This document shows, in pieces, positions 23,438 through 57,271 of a stretch of DNA of 64,000 nucleotides; positions within the stretch are counted from its first letter, which is position 1; every line of letters starts with the position of its first letter. The DNA is from Halorubrum hochsteinianum (GTDB lineage: Archaea; Halobacteriota; Halobacteria; Halobacteriales; Haloferacaceae), in assembly GCF_023702125.1 (NCBI RefSeq), contig NZ_CP098415.1, positions 1,178,001-1,242,000 of the forward strand, written 5' to 3'. A program made the position numbers and the translations under genes. The notes beneath the pieces are model-generated. The model searched no databases. It was not told where the DNA came from and worked only from the letters and a program-made list of their open reading frames with translations.

Positions 23438-23480
23438 GCGGCTCCGGCGAACCGGTTCGTCACCACTACGACGCCATTCG

Positions 23481-23722
23481 GCGGTGGCGCGTGCCTGCGA
23501 GCGTGCCGCCGAAGGCGGCCGCGAGGAGCACGCGCGAGGGAGTCGGCGGCGACCAGCGGGAGCCGCCGACGAGGCTGGGGAGGCGTGAGGCGGGGCGGGA
23601 ATCGAAGGGGCAGCCGCGAGAACGAACCTCGGTGACGCAAGCACCGCAGGAGCGAACGGAGTGAGCGACGAGGAGCACAGCGAGCCGCGGGAGTTCTCGC
23701 GGCTGGGGCTTCGGCGGTGTTC
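23481..23722 (-). repeat. Dispersed three-hairpin element, copy 1
   Basis: Read on the minus strand from the head CCGAAGCCCCAG (starting at 23714), the copy has stem A with arms CAGCCGCGAGAAC and GTTCTCGCGGCTG (13 bp, perfect), the conserved linker GCCCCTTCGATTCCCGCC, the block CCTCACGCCTCCCCAGCCTC, stem B with arms GTCGGCGGC and GCCGCCGAC, and stem C (GCGCGTGC with GCACGCGC, inner GCCGCC-TTCG-GGCGGC). It lacks the TATA-like box 29 nt upstream of the head seen in copies 3-5. It fills the gap between the small Cys-rich gene and the 2H phosphoesterase gene. Confidence 0.85.
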
Positions 23723-32421: not shown

Positions 32422-32521
32422 GTCGGTGTCGTTGACGGCGAGGCTCATAATGCCCGGTGGCGCGAGACGACTGATCCGATCCGGTCGCTCGATACGACGC
32501 AGTTGCCGGTCGGCGAGACAC

Positions 32522-32766
32522 CCCCGAATCCCCAGTCGCTCGGCTGTACGTAACTACTGACGACCAGCCGATCGACACCGGGACCGCCTCGCGGCTGCCC
32601 CTTCGAGTCCCGTTCCCGCACCGCACAGCCCCCACCTCACGCCTCCCCAGCCTCGCCGCTCGTTCGCGGGCTCCCTCCGGTCGCCCGCAGCACTCGCGGC
32701 GTCCCTCGCGCGTGCCGTCTCGCGGTCGCCGGGGGCGACCGCTCGCGGGCACGCGCCACCGCACCG
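32522..32766 (+). repeat. Dispersed three-hairpin element, copy 2 (lacks the 5' arm of stem A)
   Basis: A degenerate head (GAATCCCCAG at 32526) and one 63-bp head/promoter unit are followed by ACCGCC joined directly to TCGCGGCTGCCCCTTCGAG. The 5' arm and loop of stem A are therefore deleted. Downstream parts are intact: CCTCACGCCTCCCCAGCCTC, stem B (GCCGC with GCGGC and GCGGGC with GCCCGC) and stem C (GCGCGTGCC with GGCACGCGC, inner CGCGGTCGCC with GGCGACCGC). No TATA-like box is at the 29-nt position. It occupies most of the 405-bp gap between glmM and the FMN reductase gene. Confidence 0.8.
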
Positions 32767-36717: not shown

Positions 36718-36736
36718 CTCGGTGAGTAGTACGGGC

Positions 36737-36987
36737 ACTACCGAAGCCCCAGTCGGGAGGCGGGCGCACGCTCGCTGCGGTCCTCAGTCGCTCACTCCGT
36801 TCGCCCCCTGCGGTCCTTATTTCGCCTGCGCCCGCCTCCCGACTGCCCCTTCGAGCCCCGCCCCGCACGGCACAGCACCTCTCGCCTCCCCAACCTCGTC
36901 AGCCGACCTCCGCTTCGCTCCGGCCGGCTGACTCCCTCGCGCGTGCGACTCGCAGCCTGACGGCTGCTCGTCGGCACGCGCCAACGC
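36737..36987 (+). repeat. Dispersed three-hairpin element, copy 3
   Basis: The head CCGAAGCCCCAG starts at 36741, exactly 29 nt after the start of a TTTATA box at 36712. Stem A arms are CAGTCGGGAGGCGGGCGCA and TGCGCCCGCCTCCCGACTG (19 bp, perfect). The loop carries CTGCGGTCCT twice. The linker is GCCCCTTCGAGCCCCGCCC; stem B has GTCAGCCG with CGGCTGAC; stem C has GCGCGTGCGAC with GTCGGCACGCGC and inner GCAGCC-TGAC-GGCTGC. It lies upstream of the thermosome gene in the same orientation. The open frames inside it are not real genes. Confidence 0.9.
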
Positions 36988-37001
36988 TCGATCTGGACTT
37001 C

Positions 37002-49544: not shown

Positions 49545-49802
49545 TCAGCGCCAGTGCCAGAAGTGGTTGCCGTCCTCCTCGACCGGCTCGGTGCGCTCGC
49601 GGAGGTCGGCCACGTCCTCGGCGGTCGGCTCGTGGTCGTCGGGCAGTCTCTCCATACAGTCGAAACAGAGGAAGAACTCCGAGCCGTCGGTGAGTTCGAG
49701 GGTCAGTCCCTGCGTCGACTCGAACGCGAAGTTCCACAGGTCGCCGATCCCGCCGGCGATCCGCACGGACCGCTCGCAGACGTCGCACGACTCGGAGGCC
49801 AT
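49545..49802 (-). CDS. Small zinc-finger protein, haloarchaeal
   Basis: This encodes 85 residues with CDVCERSVRI at residue 6, a strand region (LTLELTDGSEFFLC) and CFDCMERLPDD near residue 46, forming a likely CxxC-CxxC zinc site. The C-terminus ends in an aromatic motif (NHFWHWR). It is convergent with the permease gene. No function can be assigned. The following interval to 50358 holds only element copy 4. Confidence 0.72.
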   Translation of the reverse strand: MASESCDVCERSVRIAGGIGDLWNFAFESTQGLTLELTDGSEFFLCFDCMERLPDDHEPTAEDVADLRERTEPVEEDGNHFWHWR

Positions 49803-49899: not shown

Positions 49900-50352
49900 G
49901 GAGACCGTCGAAGCCCCAGTCGCTCGGCGATACGCAGTTGCTTCCGTTACGACCGAGACCGCCGAAGCCCCAGCCGCTCGGCGATACGTAGCCGATTATA
50001 AATGAGAGATCGACACGGAGACCGCCGAAGCCCCAGTCGCTCGGCGATACGTAGCCGATTATAAATGAGAGATCGACACGGAGACCGCCGAAGCCCCAGT
50101 CGGGGGCGCGCCGGACGCTCGCTGCGGTCCTCGTCACTCGCTACGCTCGTTCCTGTGGTCCTTACGTCGCCTCCGGCGCGCCCCCGACTGCCCCTTCGAG
50201 TCCCACCCCGAACCGCCTCCGCACAGCACCTCACGCCTCCCCAGCCTCGTCGGCCGCGTCTGTCGGGCTCCCTTCGGTCGCCCTCGTCACGGCCGACTCC
50301 CTCGCGCGTGCGACTCGCGCCCTCTCGGGCGCTCGTCGGCACGCGCCACCGC
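49900..50352 (+). repeat. Dispersed three-hairpin element, copy 4, with four tandem heads
   Basis: GAAGCCCCAG heads occur at 49910, 49964, 50027 and 50090 (spacings 54, 63 and 63 bp). Two units carry TTATAA 29 nt upstream of the next CCGAAG (for example 49996 to 50025). The last head opens the full element: stem A arms CAGTCGGGGGCGCGCCGGA and TCCGGCGCGCCCCCGACTG (19 bp, perfect), linker GCCCCTTCGAGTCCCACCC, stem B GTCGGCCG with CGGCCGAC, and stem C GCGCGTGCGAC with GTCGGCACGCGC (inner GCGCCC-TCTC-GGGCGC). Since 63 bp is 21 codons, a false repetitive frame runs through it. Confidence 0.92.
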
Positions 50353-50358
50353 AACTGG

Positions 50359-51513
50359 TTACTGTGGTTCCACGTCGATCACGTGCGCGTCGTCGGGGTC
50401 GAACGCGACGGTGACCGCGCCGTCGAGGGGGTCGACCGTCCGAACGAGCAGTTCGCGGTCCCCCCAGTCGAGGGTGACTCTGGTCGTCTCCCCGAGGAAC
50501 TCCGCGCTGGCGACGGTCGCGCGCAGCGCGTTTTCGGTGCGGTTGCCCCTCCTCACCGCGTCGCCGTCGCCCGCGACCCGGAGGTGTTCCGGCCGGACGC
50601 AGAAGGCGACGCGGTCGCCGGCCTCGGGGATGGCGTCGGGGCCGTTTGCGACCCCGACGCGGAGGGTCTCGTCCGCGTCGTCGACGGCGACCGCGACCTC
50701 GCCGTCGGCGGGGGCGTCGCGGACTCGTCCCGAGAAGACGTTGTTGTCGCCGACGAACTCGGCGACGAACCGGGTGGCGGGCCGGCGGTAGACGGTCCGC
50801 GGCGGGGCCACCTGTTCGTGCGCCCCGTCGTTCATCACGGCGACGCGGTCGGAGACGGCCAGCGCCTCCTCCTGATCGTGGGTGACGTATATCGTCGTAA
50901 TCGACAGCTCCGACTGGATCCGTTTCACCTGCGCGCGGAGTCGCTCGCGCAGGCGGGCGTCGAGCGCGCTCATCGGCTCGTCCAGGAGGAGCACGTCGGG
51001 GCCGGGCGCGAGCGCCCGCGCCATCGCGACCCGCTGCTGTTGGCCGCCCGAGAGGCTCTCCGGGTCGCGGTCGGCGGCGTCGGGCAGGTCGACGAGTTCG
51101 AGCAGGTCGGCGACGCGCTCGTCGCGCGTGACGCCTTCGGGCGGCTCGGCGAAGTTGAGCCCGTACGCGACGTTCTCGCCGACGGTCATGTGCGGGAACA
51201 GCGCGTAGCTCTGGAAGACGACGCCCACGTCGCGGCGCTCCGGCGGGACACCCGCGACCGACTCGCCGGCGAAGCGGACCGCCCCCACCGTCGGCTCCTC
51301 GAACCCCGCGATCAGGCGGAGCGTCGTCGTCTTCCCGCAGCCCGAGGGGCCGACGAGCGTGAAGAACTCCCCCTCGCGCACCCGCAGGCTCACGTCGTCG
51401 ACGGCGGTCGCGTCGCCGTAGCGTTTGCTCACGCCGTCGAGTTCGACGGCGACGGGGGCGTCCGGGTGGGGAGCGTCGGGCGAGTCGCTCCGGTCAGAGC
51501 CCACGGTGGTCAC
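50359..51513 (-). CDS. ABC transporter ATP-binding protein (thiamine/iron/spermidine type)
   Basis: This 384-residue ATPase starts at GTG 51513. Walker A is GPSGCGKTTTLRL, the Q-loop is VVFQSYALFPHMTV, the signature is LSGGQQQRVAMARAL, Walker B is VLLLDEPMSALD and the switch His is in YVTHDQEEALAV. A TOBE domain (C-terminal 110 residues, EHLRVAGDGDAVRRGN) binds the substrate or regulates. Together with the fused permease and lipoprotein it forms an importer. The start overlaps the end of the permease gene by 20 bases, so the three genes form a single operon. Confidence 0.9.
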   Translation of the reverse strand: MTTVGSDRSDSPDAPHPDAPVAVELDGVSKRYGDATAVDDVSLRVREGEFFTLVGPSGCGKTTTLRLIAGFEEPTVGAVRFAGESVAGVPPERRDVGVVFQSYALFPHMTVGENVAYGLNFAEPPEGVTRDERVADLLELVDLPDAADRDPESLSGGQQQRVAMARALAPGPDVLLLDEPMSALDARLRERLRAQVKRIQSELSITTIYVTHDQEEALAVSDRVAVMNDGAHEQVAPPRTVYRRPATRFVAEFVGDNNVFSGRVRDAPADGEVAVAVDDADETLRVGVANGPDAIPEAGDRVAFCVRPEHLRVAGDGDAVRRGNRTENALRATVASAEFLGETTRVTLDWGDRELLVRTVDPLDGAVTVAFDPDDAHVIDVEPQ

Positions 51514-55631: not shown

Positions 55632-56022
55632 TGCGGTGGCGCGTGCCGACGAGCGGCCGATAGGCCGCGAGTCGCACGCGCGAGGGAGTCGCTGGCGGTC
55701 GAGCGAAGCGAAGACCGCCAGCGACGAGGCTGGGGAGGCGTGAGGTGCTGTGCGGAGCGGTGCGGGGGCGGGATTCGAAGGGGCAGTCGCGAGGGCGAAG
55801 CACGACGAAGTAAGCACCGCAGGGAGCGAACAAAGTGAGCGACTGAGGAGCGCAGCGAGTCGCGCGAGTCCTCGCGACTGGGGCTTCGGCGGTATCCGTG
55901 TCGATCGGTTAGTTATAACCGACTACGTACAGCCGAGCGACTGGGGCTTCGGCGGTATCCGTGTCGATCGGTTAGTTATAACCGACTACGCACAGCCGAG
56001 CGACCGGGGCTTCGGCGGCGTT
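55632..56022 (-). repeat. Dispersed three-hairpin element, copy 5, with three tandem heads
   Basis: On the minus strand the head CCGAAG starts at 55889, 55952 and 56015 (63-bp period), and TTATAA lies 29 nt upstream of the first two (for example 55913-55918). Stem A has arms CAGTCGCGAGG and CCTCGCGACTG. Stem B is GTCGCTGGCGGTC with GACCGCCAGCGAC, 13 bp, and stem C is GCGCGTGCGAC with GTCGGCACGCGC (inner GCGGCC-TATC-GGCCGC). A degenerate fourth head lies near 56055-56080. It fills the gap before hisA, and any frames inside are artefacts. Confidence 0.92.
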
Positions 56023-56198: not shown

Positions 56199-56954
56199 AT
56201 GAGCGACTTCCCCGAGTTCGAGGTGATTCCCGCCGTCGACGTGCAGGACGGCGAGGTCGTCCAGCTGGTCGGCGGCGAGCGCGGGACGGGCAAACGCTAC
56301 GGCGACCCGGTCGACGCCGCCGAGCGCTGGATCGACGCGGGCGCGAGCACCCTCCACCTCGTCGACCTCGACGGCGCGTTCGAGGGCGAGCGGGTCAACG
56401 CCGCGGCGATCGAGGCGGTCGTCGAGGCGGTCGGCGGCGCGGACGGCGACGACGCGATCGGCCTCCAACTCGGCGGCGGCATCCGCACCGCCGGCGGCGC
56501 GCGCGACCTCCTCGATCTGGGACTCGACCGCGTGATACTCGGGACTGCGGCGGTCGAGACGCCCGAGATCGTCGCGGAGATCGACGAGACGCACCCGGGA
56601 AGCGTCGTCGTCAGCCTCGACGCGAAGGACGGCGAGGTCGTGGTGTCGGGGTGGACGGAGGGAACCGGGCTCGACCCCGCCGAGGCGGCCGCGCGCTACG
56701 AGGAGCTGGGTGCGGGCGCGATCCTCTTCACGAACGTCGACGTGGAGGGCCAGTTGGAGGGGATCGACCGCGAGGCGGTGGAGTCGGTGGTCGAGGCGGT
56801 CGACATCCCGGTCATCGCGTCCGGCGGCGTGGCGTCGGTCGGCGACGTGGTCGCGCTGAAGGAGGCAGGGGCGGCCGCGGTCGTGGTCGGGACCGCGCTG
56901 TACGAGGGCGAATTCACGCTGCGGGAGGCGCAACAGGCGGCCGACGAGGTCTGA
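56199..56954 (+). CDS. hisA: Phosphoribosylformimino-AICAR ribotide isomerase
   Basis: This 251-residue TIM-barrel enzyme catalyses the fourth step of histidine synthesis (ProFAR to PRFAR). The catalytic Asp near the N-terminus is in VIPAVDVQDGEVVQLVGG. Second-half phosphate-binding features are GGGIRTAGGARDLLDLG, with the second Asp at LFTNVDVEGQLEGID and IASGGVASVGDVVALKEAG. A GTTTAAT box is centred 27 nt upstream. It is bracketed by element copies 5 and 6, and hisB lies 385 nt downstream. The two his genes are not fused as an operon here, and each has its own TATA-like box. Confidence 0.94.
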   Translation: MSDFPEFEVIPAVDVQDGEVVQLVGGERGTGKRYGDPVDAAERWIDAGASTLHLVDLDGAFEGERVNAAAIEAVVEAVGGADGDDAIGLQLGGGIRTAGGARDLLDLGLDRVILGTAAVETPEIVAEIDETHPGSVVVSLDAKDGEVVVSGWTEGTGLDPAEAAARYEELGAGAILFTNVDVEGQLEGIDREAVESVVEAVDIPVIASGGVASVGDVVALKEAGAAAVVVGTALYEGEFTLREAQQAADEV

Positions 56955-57015: not shown

Positions 57016-57271
57016 CCGAGACCGCCGAAGCCCCAGCCGCGAGGTTGACGCACGCTCGCTGCGGTCCTCTCTCAGTCGCTGTCGCTCCTTCGCTGCGGTC
57101 CTTGCGTCGCCTGCGTCAACCTCGCGGCTGCCCCTTCGAGTCCCGCCCTACCGCACCTCACACCTCCCCAGCCTCGTCGCTGGCGGCCTTCGCTCACGCT
57201 TCGGCCGACAGCGACTCCCTCGCGCGACGCTCCTCGGCCGCAAGGCGGCCTCGGAGGCGCGCGCCACCGCA
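57016..57271 (+). repeat. Dispersed three-hairpin element, copy 6
   Basis: The head CCGAAG starts at 57025. Stem A arms are CAGCCGCGAGGTTGACGCA and TGCGTCAACCTCGCGGCTG (19 bp, perfect). The linker is GCCCCTTCGAGTCCCGCCC. Stem B is GTCGCTGGCGGCC with GGCCGACAGCGAC (one mismatch). Stem C is a variant: GCGCG with CGCGC and inner GGCCGC-AAG-GCGGCC. No TATA-like box is at the 29-nt position. It lies between hisA and hisB and ends about 70 nt before hisB. Confidence 0.9.

Follow-up and report, generated by a model that had tools for sequence, protein, structure and literature searches.

The window analyzed here (G000:C1:1178001-1242000; 64,000 nucleotides) is part of a 2.96-Mb Halorubrum chromosome and carries copies of an interspersed element whose 5' module contains a head sequence, CCGAAGCCCCAGYCG. 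Searching the window for the 20-base head gave 11 occurrences, compared with 0.04 expected from shuffles. Two copies, referred to as copy 4 (forward strand) and copy 5 (reverse strand), have several heads in tandem. The array frame is the sense frame starting at GAA of the head. The features of the window are:

23480..23719, reverse strand: element copy, single head
32519..32763, forward strand: element copy, one recognisable head
36736..36988, forward strand: element copy, single head
49545..49802, reverse strand: divergent gene, 5' end toward the copy 4 array
49908..49961, forward strand: copy 4 array unit 1, 54 bp, head and TATA-less spacer
49962..50024, forward strand: copy 4 array unit 2, 63 bp; TTATAA at 49996-50001; TGA in the array frame
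50025..50087, forward strand: copy 4 array unit 3, 63 bp; head one base different from that of unit 2; TTATAA at 50059-50064
50088..50102, forward strand: copy 4 last head, forming the left arm of the element stem P1
50088..50353, forward strand: copy 4 core, with head, variable P2 hairpin and further parts up to the terminal hairpins
50185-50198, forward strand: right arm of P1 in the copy 4 core
50224-50246, forward strand: conserved C-rich tail in the copy 4 core, which also contains the terminal hairpins
50359..51513, reverse strand: ABC-transporter ATPase-like gene, 3' end toward the copy 4 tail; anchor of the orthologue comparison
55632..55889, reverse strand: copy 5 last head and core
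55890..55952, reverse strand: copy 5 array unit 2, 63 bp; TTATAA at 55913-55918
55953..56015, reverse strand: copy 5 array unit 1, 63 bp; TTATAA at 55976-55981; TAA in the array frame
56199..56954, forward strand: hisA, divergent from copy 5; anchor of the orthologue comparison
57020..57271, forward strand: element copy, single head

The heads of copy 4 lie at 49908, 49962, 50025 and 50088 (spacing 54, 63 and 63 bp) and those of copy 5 at 56001, 55938 and 55875 (63 and 63 bp); the spacings are those given in the initial annotation. Tandem Repeats Finder gave the same picture, with a period of 63 at 49955-50102 (98 % matches) for copy 4 and at 55874-56018 (97 % matches) for copy 5. Of the motifs described there as kept, the 54-bp first unit of copy 4 has no TTATAA, TACGTAG or GATCGACAC, and the first unit of copy 5 has TGCGTAG in place of TACGTAG.

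The element and the variation of its arrays

When the whole genome was searched for heads with at most one mismatch, 166 were found at 112 places, compared with 17 matches to a reversed control pattern. A conserved tail follows the head at 102 of the 112 places. The element is present in about 100 copies, which are mostly intergenic and structured. Pairing of the last head with CGRCTGCCCCTTCG leaves an internal loop of CCC/CCC, and the stem so formed encloses a variable hairpin with 54 different left arms. The arms of this hairpin covary (10.8 of 12 pairs formed within a copy vs 8.5 between copies). On its 3' side come a conserved C-rich stretch and then more hairpins. Among the stem pairs 93 are G-T and 41 are A-C, and this excess suggests the head-first strand as the RNA. 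In some copies, such as elements 2504248- and 634381-, the hairpin loops contain perfect small palindromes (e.g. CATCAGAACGCGAAGCGTTCTGATTGG and GCGAGAATCGAAGATTCTCTGGCAG), as though additional palindromes had used the element as a landing site.

Each of the 22 sampled Halorubrum genomes contains the tail, with 13-194 matches per genome; elsewhere it is sporadic, with one other genus reaching 49 matches. Of 78 related genomes, 22 have heads in array, and these are all Halorubrum. In the one genome inspected from that other genus, which belongs to another haloarchaeal family (G217, loci L381-L400), the same tail is joined to a different 5' module, which has no heads and ends in GCTAGCTACTGCCGACGCC or GCTAGCTTCAGGCTTGAGCC. 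The element seems to have exchangeable 5' and 3' parts, and since the 5' module in G217 has no heads, this genome could not replicate the frame test described below. A search of the window against Rfam at the gathering score returned only tRNA, and the element matched no family. No paper on the element was found in the literature on the head sequence and on Halorubrum repeats. A viral source was rejected, as one unit on one IMG/VR contig, with no tails, was all that was found; this single array-type head lies at L376:6526-6545 on the 41.6-kb viral contig IMGVR_UViG_3300032180_000020.

At least two heads are present at 37 of the 112 places, with a maximum of seven. The units of these 37 arrays fall into seven length classes from 51 to 69 bp, of which 63 bp is the commonest. 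The common period of copies 4 and 5, which had been put forward as a sign of a shared mechanism, is therefore only the commonest class in a range of periods. Within a locus the units are identical or nearly so, and between loci their middle parts diverge widely.

Orthologous sites were compared between genomes, as the initial annotation had proposed. About 23 of 30 Halorubrum genomes have the tail at the copy 4 site (upstream of the ABC gene), but in this comparison the 54/63/63 array is confined to the genome studied here. The nearest relative (G020) has one head at this site, G081 has two that are 44 bp apart, and the other genomes mostly have none. At the copy 5 site (upstream of hisA) a head was found in none of 29 relatives. 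In G020 the copy 5 element is shortened (L227), with no head or hairpin between the tail and a remnant of the 5' unit. The species also differ at six further loci, in copy number as well as in unit length. Because the element is often kept at orthologous sites while the array differs, the amplification is recent and locus-specific. The copy-number variation anticipated by the initial annotation is thus present, and the identical arrays in all relatives that it would have taken for ancient inheritance were not seen at copies 4 and 5, which points to recent expansion. As array length differs between species, it is usable as a strain marker.

Unit length, array frame and phase with upstream genes

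The multiple-of-three rule and the phase with upstream genes are additions to the initial annotation, which contained neither. Head-to-head spacing is a multiple of three in 158 of 160 cases (53/54 in this genome and 105/106 in other Halorubrum genomes). The rule is kept in 40 of 46 decayed units located 5' of exact heads, and in 32 of the 34 with at most six mismatches. Stops are rare in the array frame of type II units, where 15 of 125 units have one, compared with 60 and 89 in the other two sense frames. Type I units (57 bp, n = 21), with TTATAA directly behind the head, all contain an in-frame TAA. Translation of the array frame is acidic and protein-like: its ratio of D+E to K+R is 1.4-1.6, whereas the other frames give 0.1-0.4 and genes 2.06.

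Substitutions are spread evenly over the codon positions, both between units (192:199:186) and between orthologues (43:38:42), and thus give no sign of a conserved peptide. When the array-frame peptide was compared with Pfam and with phage and plasmid proteins, no family exceeded the cut-off and no tblastn match was obtained. Two properties of coding tandem repeats are therefore present, namely unit length in multiples of three and, in type II units, an open frame, while location inside a gene and third-position bias are lacking. Stops are also depleted in the whole plus-strand core (81 vs 151 expected); as homology among the copies makes this test non-independent, we did not use its result.

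Genes for the phase analysis were called with our own simple codon-usage gene finder and not taken from the annotation. Of the intergenic copies, 65 have their head side toward a co-oriented gene's 3' end and 36 toward a divergent gene's 5' end. When the array frame was compared with the stop of the co-oriented upstream gene at 60 separate loci of this genome, the three phases were occupied 36/13/11, so that 36 of 60 loci are in phase (p 6e-5). Two controls gave uniform phases: heads measured relative to the starts of divergent genes (7/10/12), and the tail motif measured relative to the stops of upstream genes and to downstream genes. The in-phase loci comprise 18 of the 23 true arrays and 18 of the 37 single heads. 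In other Halorubrum genomes 38 of 58 loci are in phase, in a set whose orthologous loci are not fully independent.

The stretch between the gene stop and the first head is also affected at in-phase loci. It contains 10 stops in the gene frame vs 39 and 38 in the other frames, compared with 51/50/53 by frame in element-free control 3' regions, and 31 of 38 in-phase loci have no in-frame stop before the first head. When the stop-to-head distance was compared with G020 and G081, its changes were multiples of three in 20 of 23 in-phase pairs, but in only 7 of 15 at other loci. The open-frame bias around the array is lost at divergent loci, which include both copies in the window. As both window arrays lie behind divergent genes and have in-frame stops in 63-bp units, the frame constraint is not visible there.

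The stop codons preceding in-phase arrays are TAA (13), TAG (13) and TGA (12), and since all three are used, no specific recoding signal is evident. TGA is rarer at these loci (12/38) than in control genes with free 3' ends (89/146; p 0.002), which could reflect tighter stops or replacement of the stop at insertion. Orthologues that have the element and those that lack it agree in gene C-terminus and stop position, so these stops are natural. In terms of a readthrough extension, an in-phase, stop-poor frame past a natural stop is thus present, and a specific stop codon or context is not. On the tail side, the neighbor is a convergent gene at 22 of 36 in-phase loci and a co-oriented gene at 19 of 24 out-of-phase loci.

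Three other ways of reading the array frame were considered. Fusion of the gene to the array after stop loss was represented by one in-frame candidate in 279 clusters; fused genes being practically absent, any translation of the array frame crosses a stop codon. Translation from an own start codon behind the stop was rejected, as ATG, GTG and TTG are all absent between stop and head in several in-phase regions. Antisense coding was rejected as well, with antisense stops at in-phase loci unbiased by frame (21/26/24).

Explanations for the array frame

The features observed directly are the arrays, their variation, the multiple-of-three rule, the open frame and the phase. To account for them, we propose that the arrays arose by recent, locus-specific tandem duplication of the 5' module (the head and a spacer of 36-54 bp) of a high-copy Halorubrum interspersed element, and that they would grow and shrink by unequal recombination or slippage between heads. 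The 5' module is coding-like and under constraint, and its frame continues that of the upstream gene past its natural stop at most co-oriented loci. As the most probable cause, ribosomes would occasionally pass the stop and run through the module, which would lead to selection against frameshifts and stops there. The amino acid sequence would then be hardly conserved and only frame and openness kept. Occasional translation past the stop is proposed as the selecting force because frame and openness are preserved without conservation of the amino acids, and because fusions are practically absent. The TTATAA box, which a subset of units carries at a fixed distance from the head, may additionally function as a promoter. 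We prefer unequal duplication of a coding-like tail, its frame kept by occasional reading past the stop, as a tentative explanation with slightly less than an even chance of being correct.

In a further-reaching form, which we regard as doubtful, the element plants an expandable, frame-locked tail behind host stops, natural readthrough products gain a variable acidic C-terminal extension, and the evolving tail is common to dozens of unrelated genes. If the phase lock is due to translation, a selected region past the stop is shared by dozens of unrelated haloarchaeal genes. Leaky termination in archaea would then be testable at many loci, and a repeat element would have become adapted to the reading frame of the preceding gene. 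Even without translation, phase relative to a stop codon is a constraint on intergenic repeats, of which we know of no earlier description. For archaea, the part of a recoding review available to us (PMC8211752) describes readthrough via selenocysteine and pyrrolysine, and ordinary readthrough in haloarchaea is not described in that part.

The main rival, which we consider possible but rather unlikely, is that the element enters directly behind stops, its left end always in the same codon phase and its units derived from a coding ancestor, so that the frame signals are inherited and fading and there is no present translation. The unchanged C-termini and stop positions of genes with and without the element agree with this. 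At several sites the sequence from the stop onward is unrelated to that of element-free orthologues and the stop codon itself differs; for example, the gene upstream of 700557+ (G000:C1:700557) ends in TAG here and in TGA in G020 and G081. The informative element-free sites agree as to position, and phase 0 is commoner in the young-looking arrays than in single heads. However, heavily diverged in-phase orthologous regions still change length in steps of three (the 20 of 23 pairs above) and are nearly stop-free, as seen at 1000048-, which is diverged in five genomes and shows both properties. The frame is also kept in decayed units, and at 452434+ native 3' sequence has been kept between stop and array. 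At 700557+, similarity to G020 and G081 resumes only about 330-360 bases into the 3' region of the orthologue, as if insertion had been accompanied by deletion or replacement.

The initial annotation had suggested that each repeat adds a complete promoter. In this explanation the tandem units multiply a TATA-box promoter of the element RNA, and more units give higher expression. The distance from TTATAA to the next head is constant in TATA-bearing units of 63, 66 and 69 bp despite their varying length, and another constant distance is kept in 57-bp units. In archaeal promoters the box lies about 25-30 nt from the start, which is consistent with such a role, as is the excess of G-T stem pairs if the head-first strand is the RNA. 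However, a TATA box at a fixed distance is not found in every unit, and whole unit classes are without one: TTATAA is missing from 51-bp, 54-bp and several 66-bp units, including the first unit of copy 4, and from the region upstream of the last head at 48 of 60 co-oriented loci. Neither the multiples of three nor the phase with upstream stops is accounted for. We concluded that a promoter role is possible for the TTATAA-bearing subset and is not a common feature of the units; as an explanation of the arrays as a whole it is unlikely.

A neutral minisatellite, in which the few ancestral lengths were multiples of three and recombination of units only shuffles them, is very improbable: seven length classes do cover nearly all units and whole-unit changes do keep the total a multiple of three, but lengths also change in small steps of 3, 6 and 9 bp, with hardly any of 1 or 2 bp, and stop depletion in one frame, acidic composition and phase with the upstream gene against uniform controls are not predicted.

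Comparison with known systems

Interspersed palindromic repeats of the REP, BIME and RPE class and MITEs are the known comparison class for the element. It resembles them in its roughly 100 copies in a genome, most of them between genes, in its covarying hairpins and in the lack of a protein gene. We know of no member of this class with a front-end VNTR that obeys a multiple-of-three rule and keeps phase with a stop codon. Mouse L1 elements have 5'-UTR monomers, which form a tandem, promoter-bearing 5' module of variable number in a dispersed element. The Halorubrum arrays are likewise a tandem, number-variable 5' module of a dispersed element, but the TATA box is found in a subset of units only, there are no retrotransposon proteins, and the frame constraint is absent from L1.

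Palindromic amphipathic repeat coding sequences (PARCELs; PMC2996958) are similar in being dispersed, tandem, frame-keeping units at many loci. As described in the part of that report available to us, PARCELs are intragenic and encode conserved repeats of expressed proteins, whereas the Halorubrum arrays are not fused to genes and gave no Pfam family above the cut-off. In a survey of prokaryotic coding satellites, most families with repeats longer than 30 nt have units that are multiples of three, and only three satellites with repeats of this length were recorded for H. lacusprofundi (PMC6749651). The Halorubrum units share the tandem arrangement, the length above 30 nt and the multiple of three with these satellites, but they are located after a stop codon and not within an annotated gene, form part of an interspersed element and lack codon-position bias in their substitutions.
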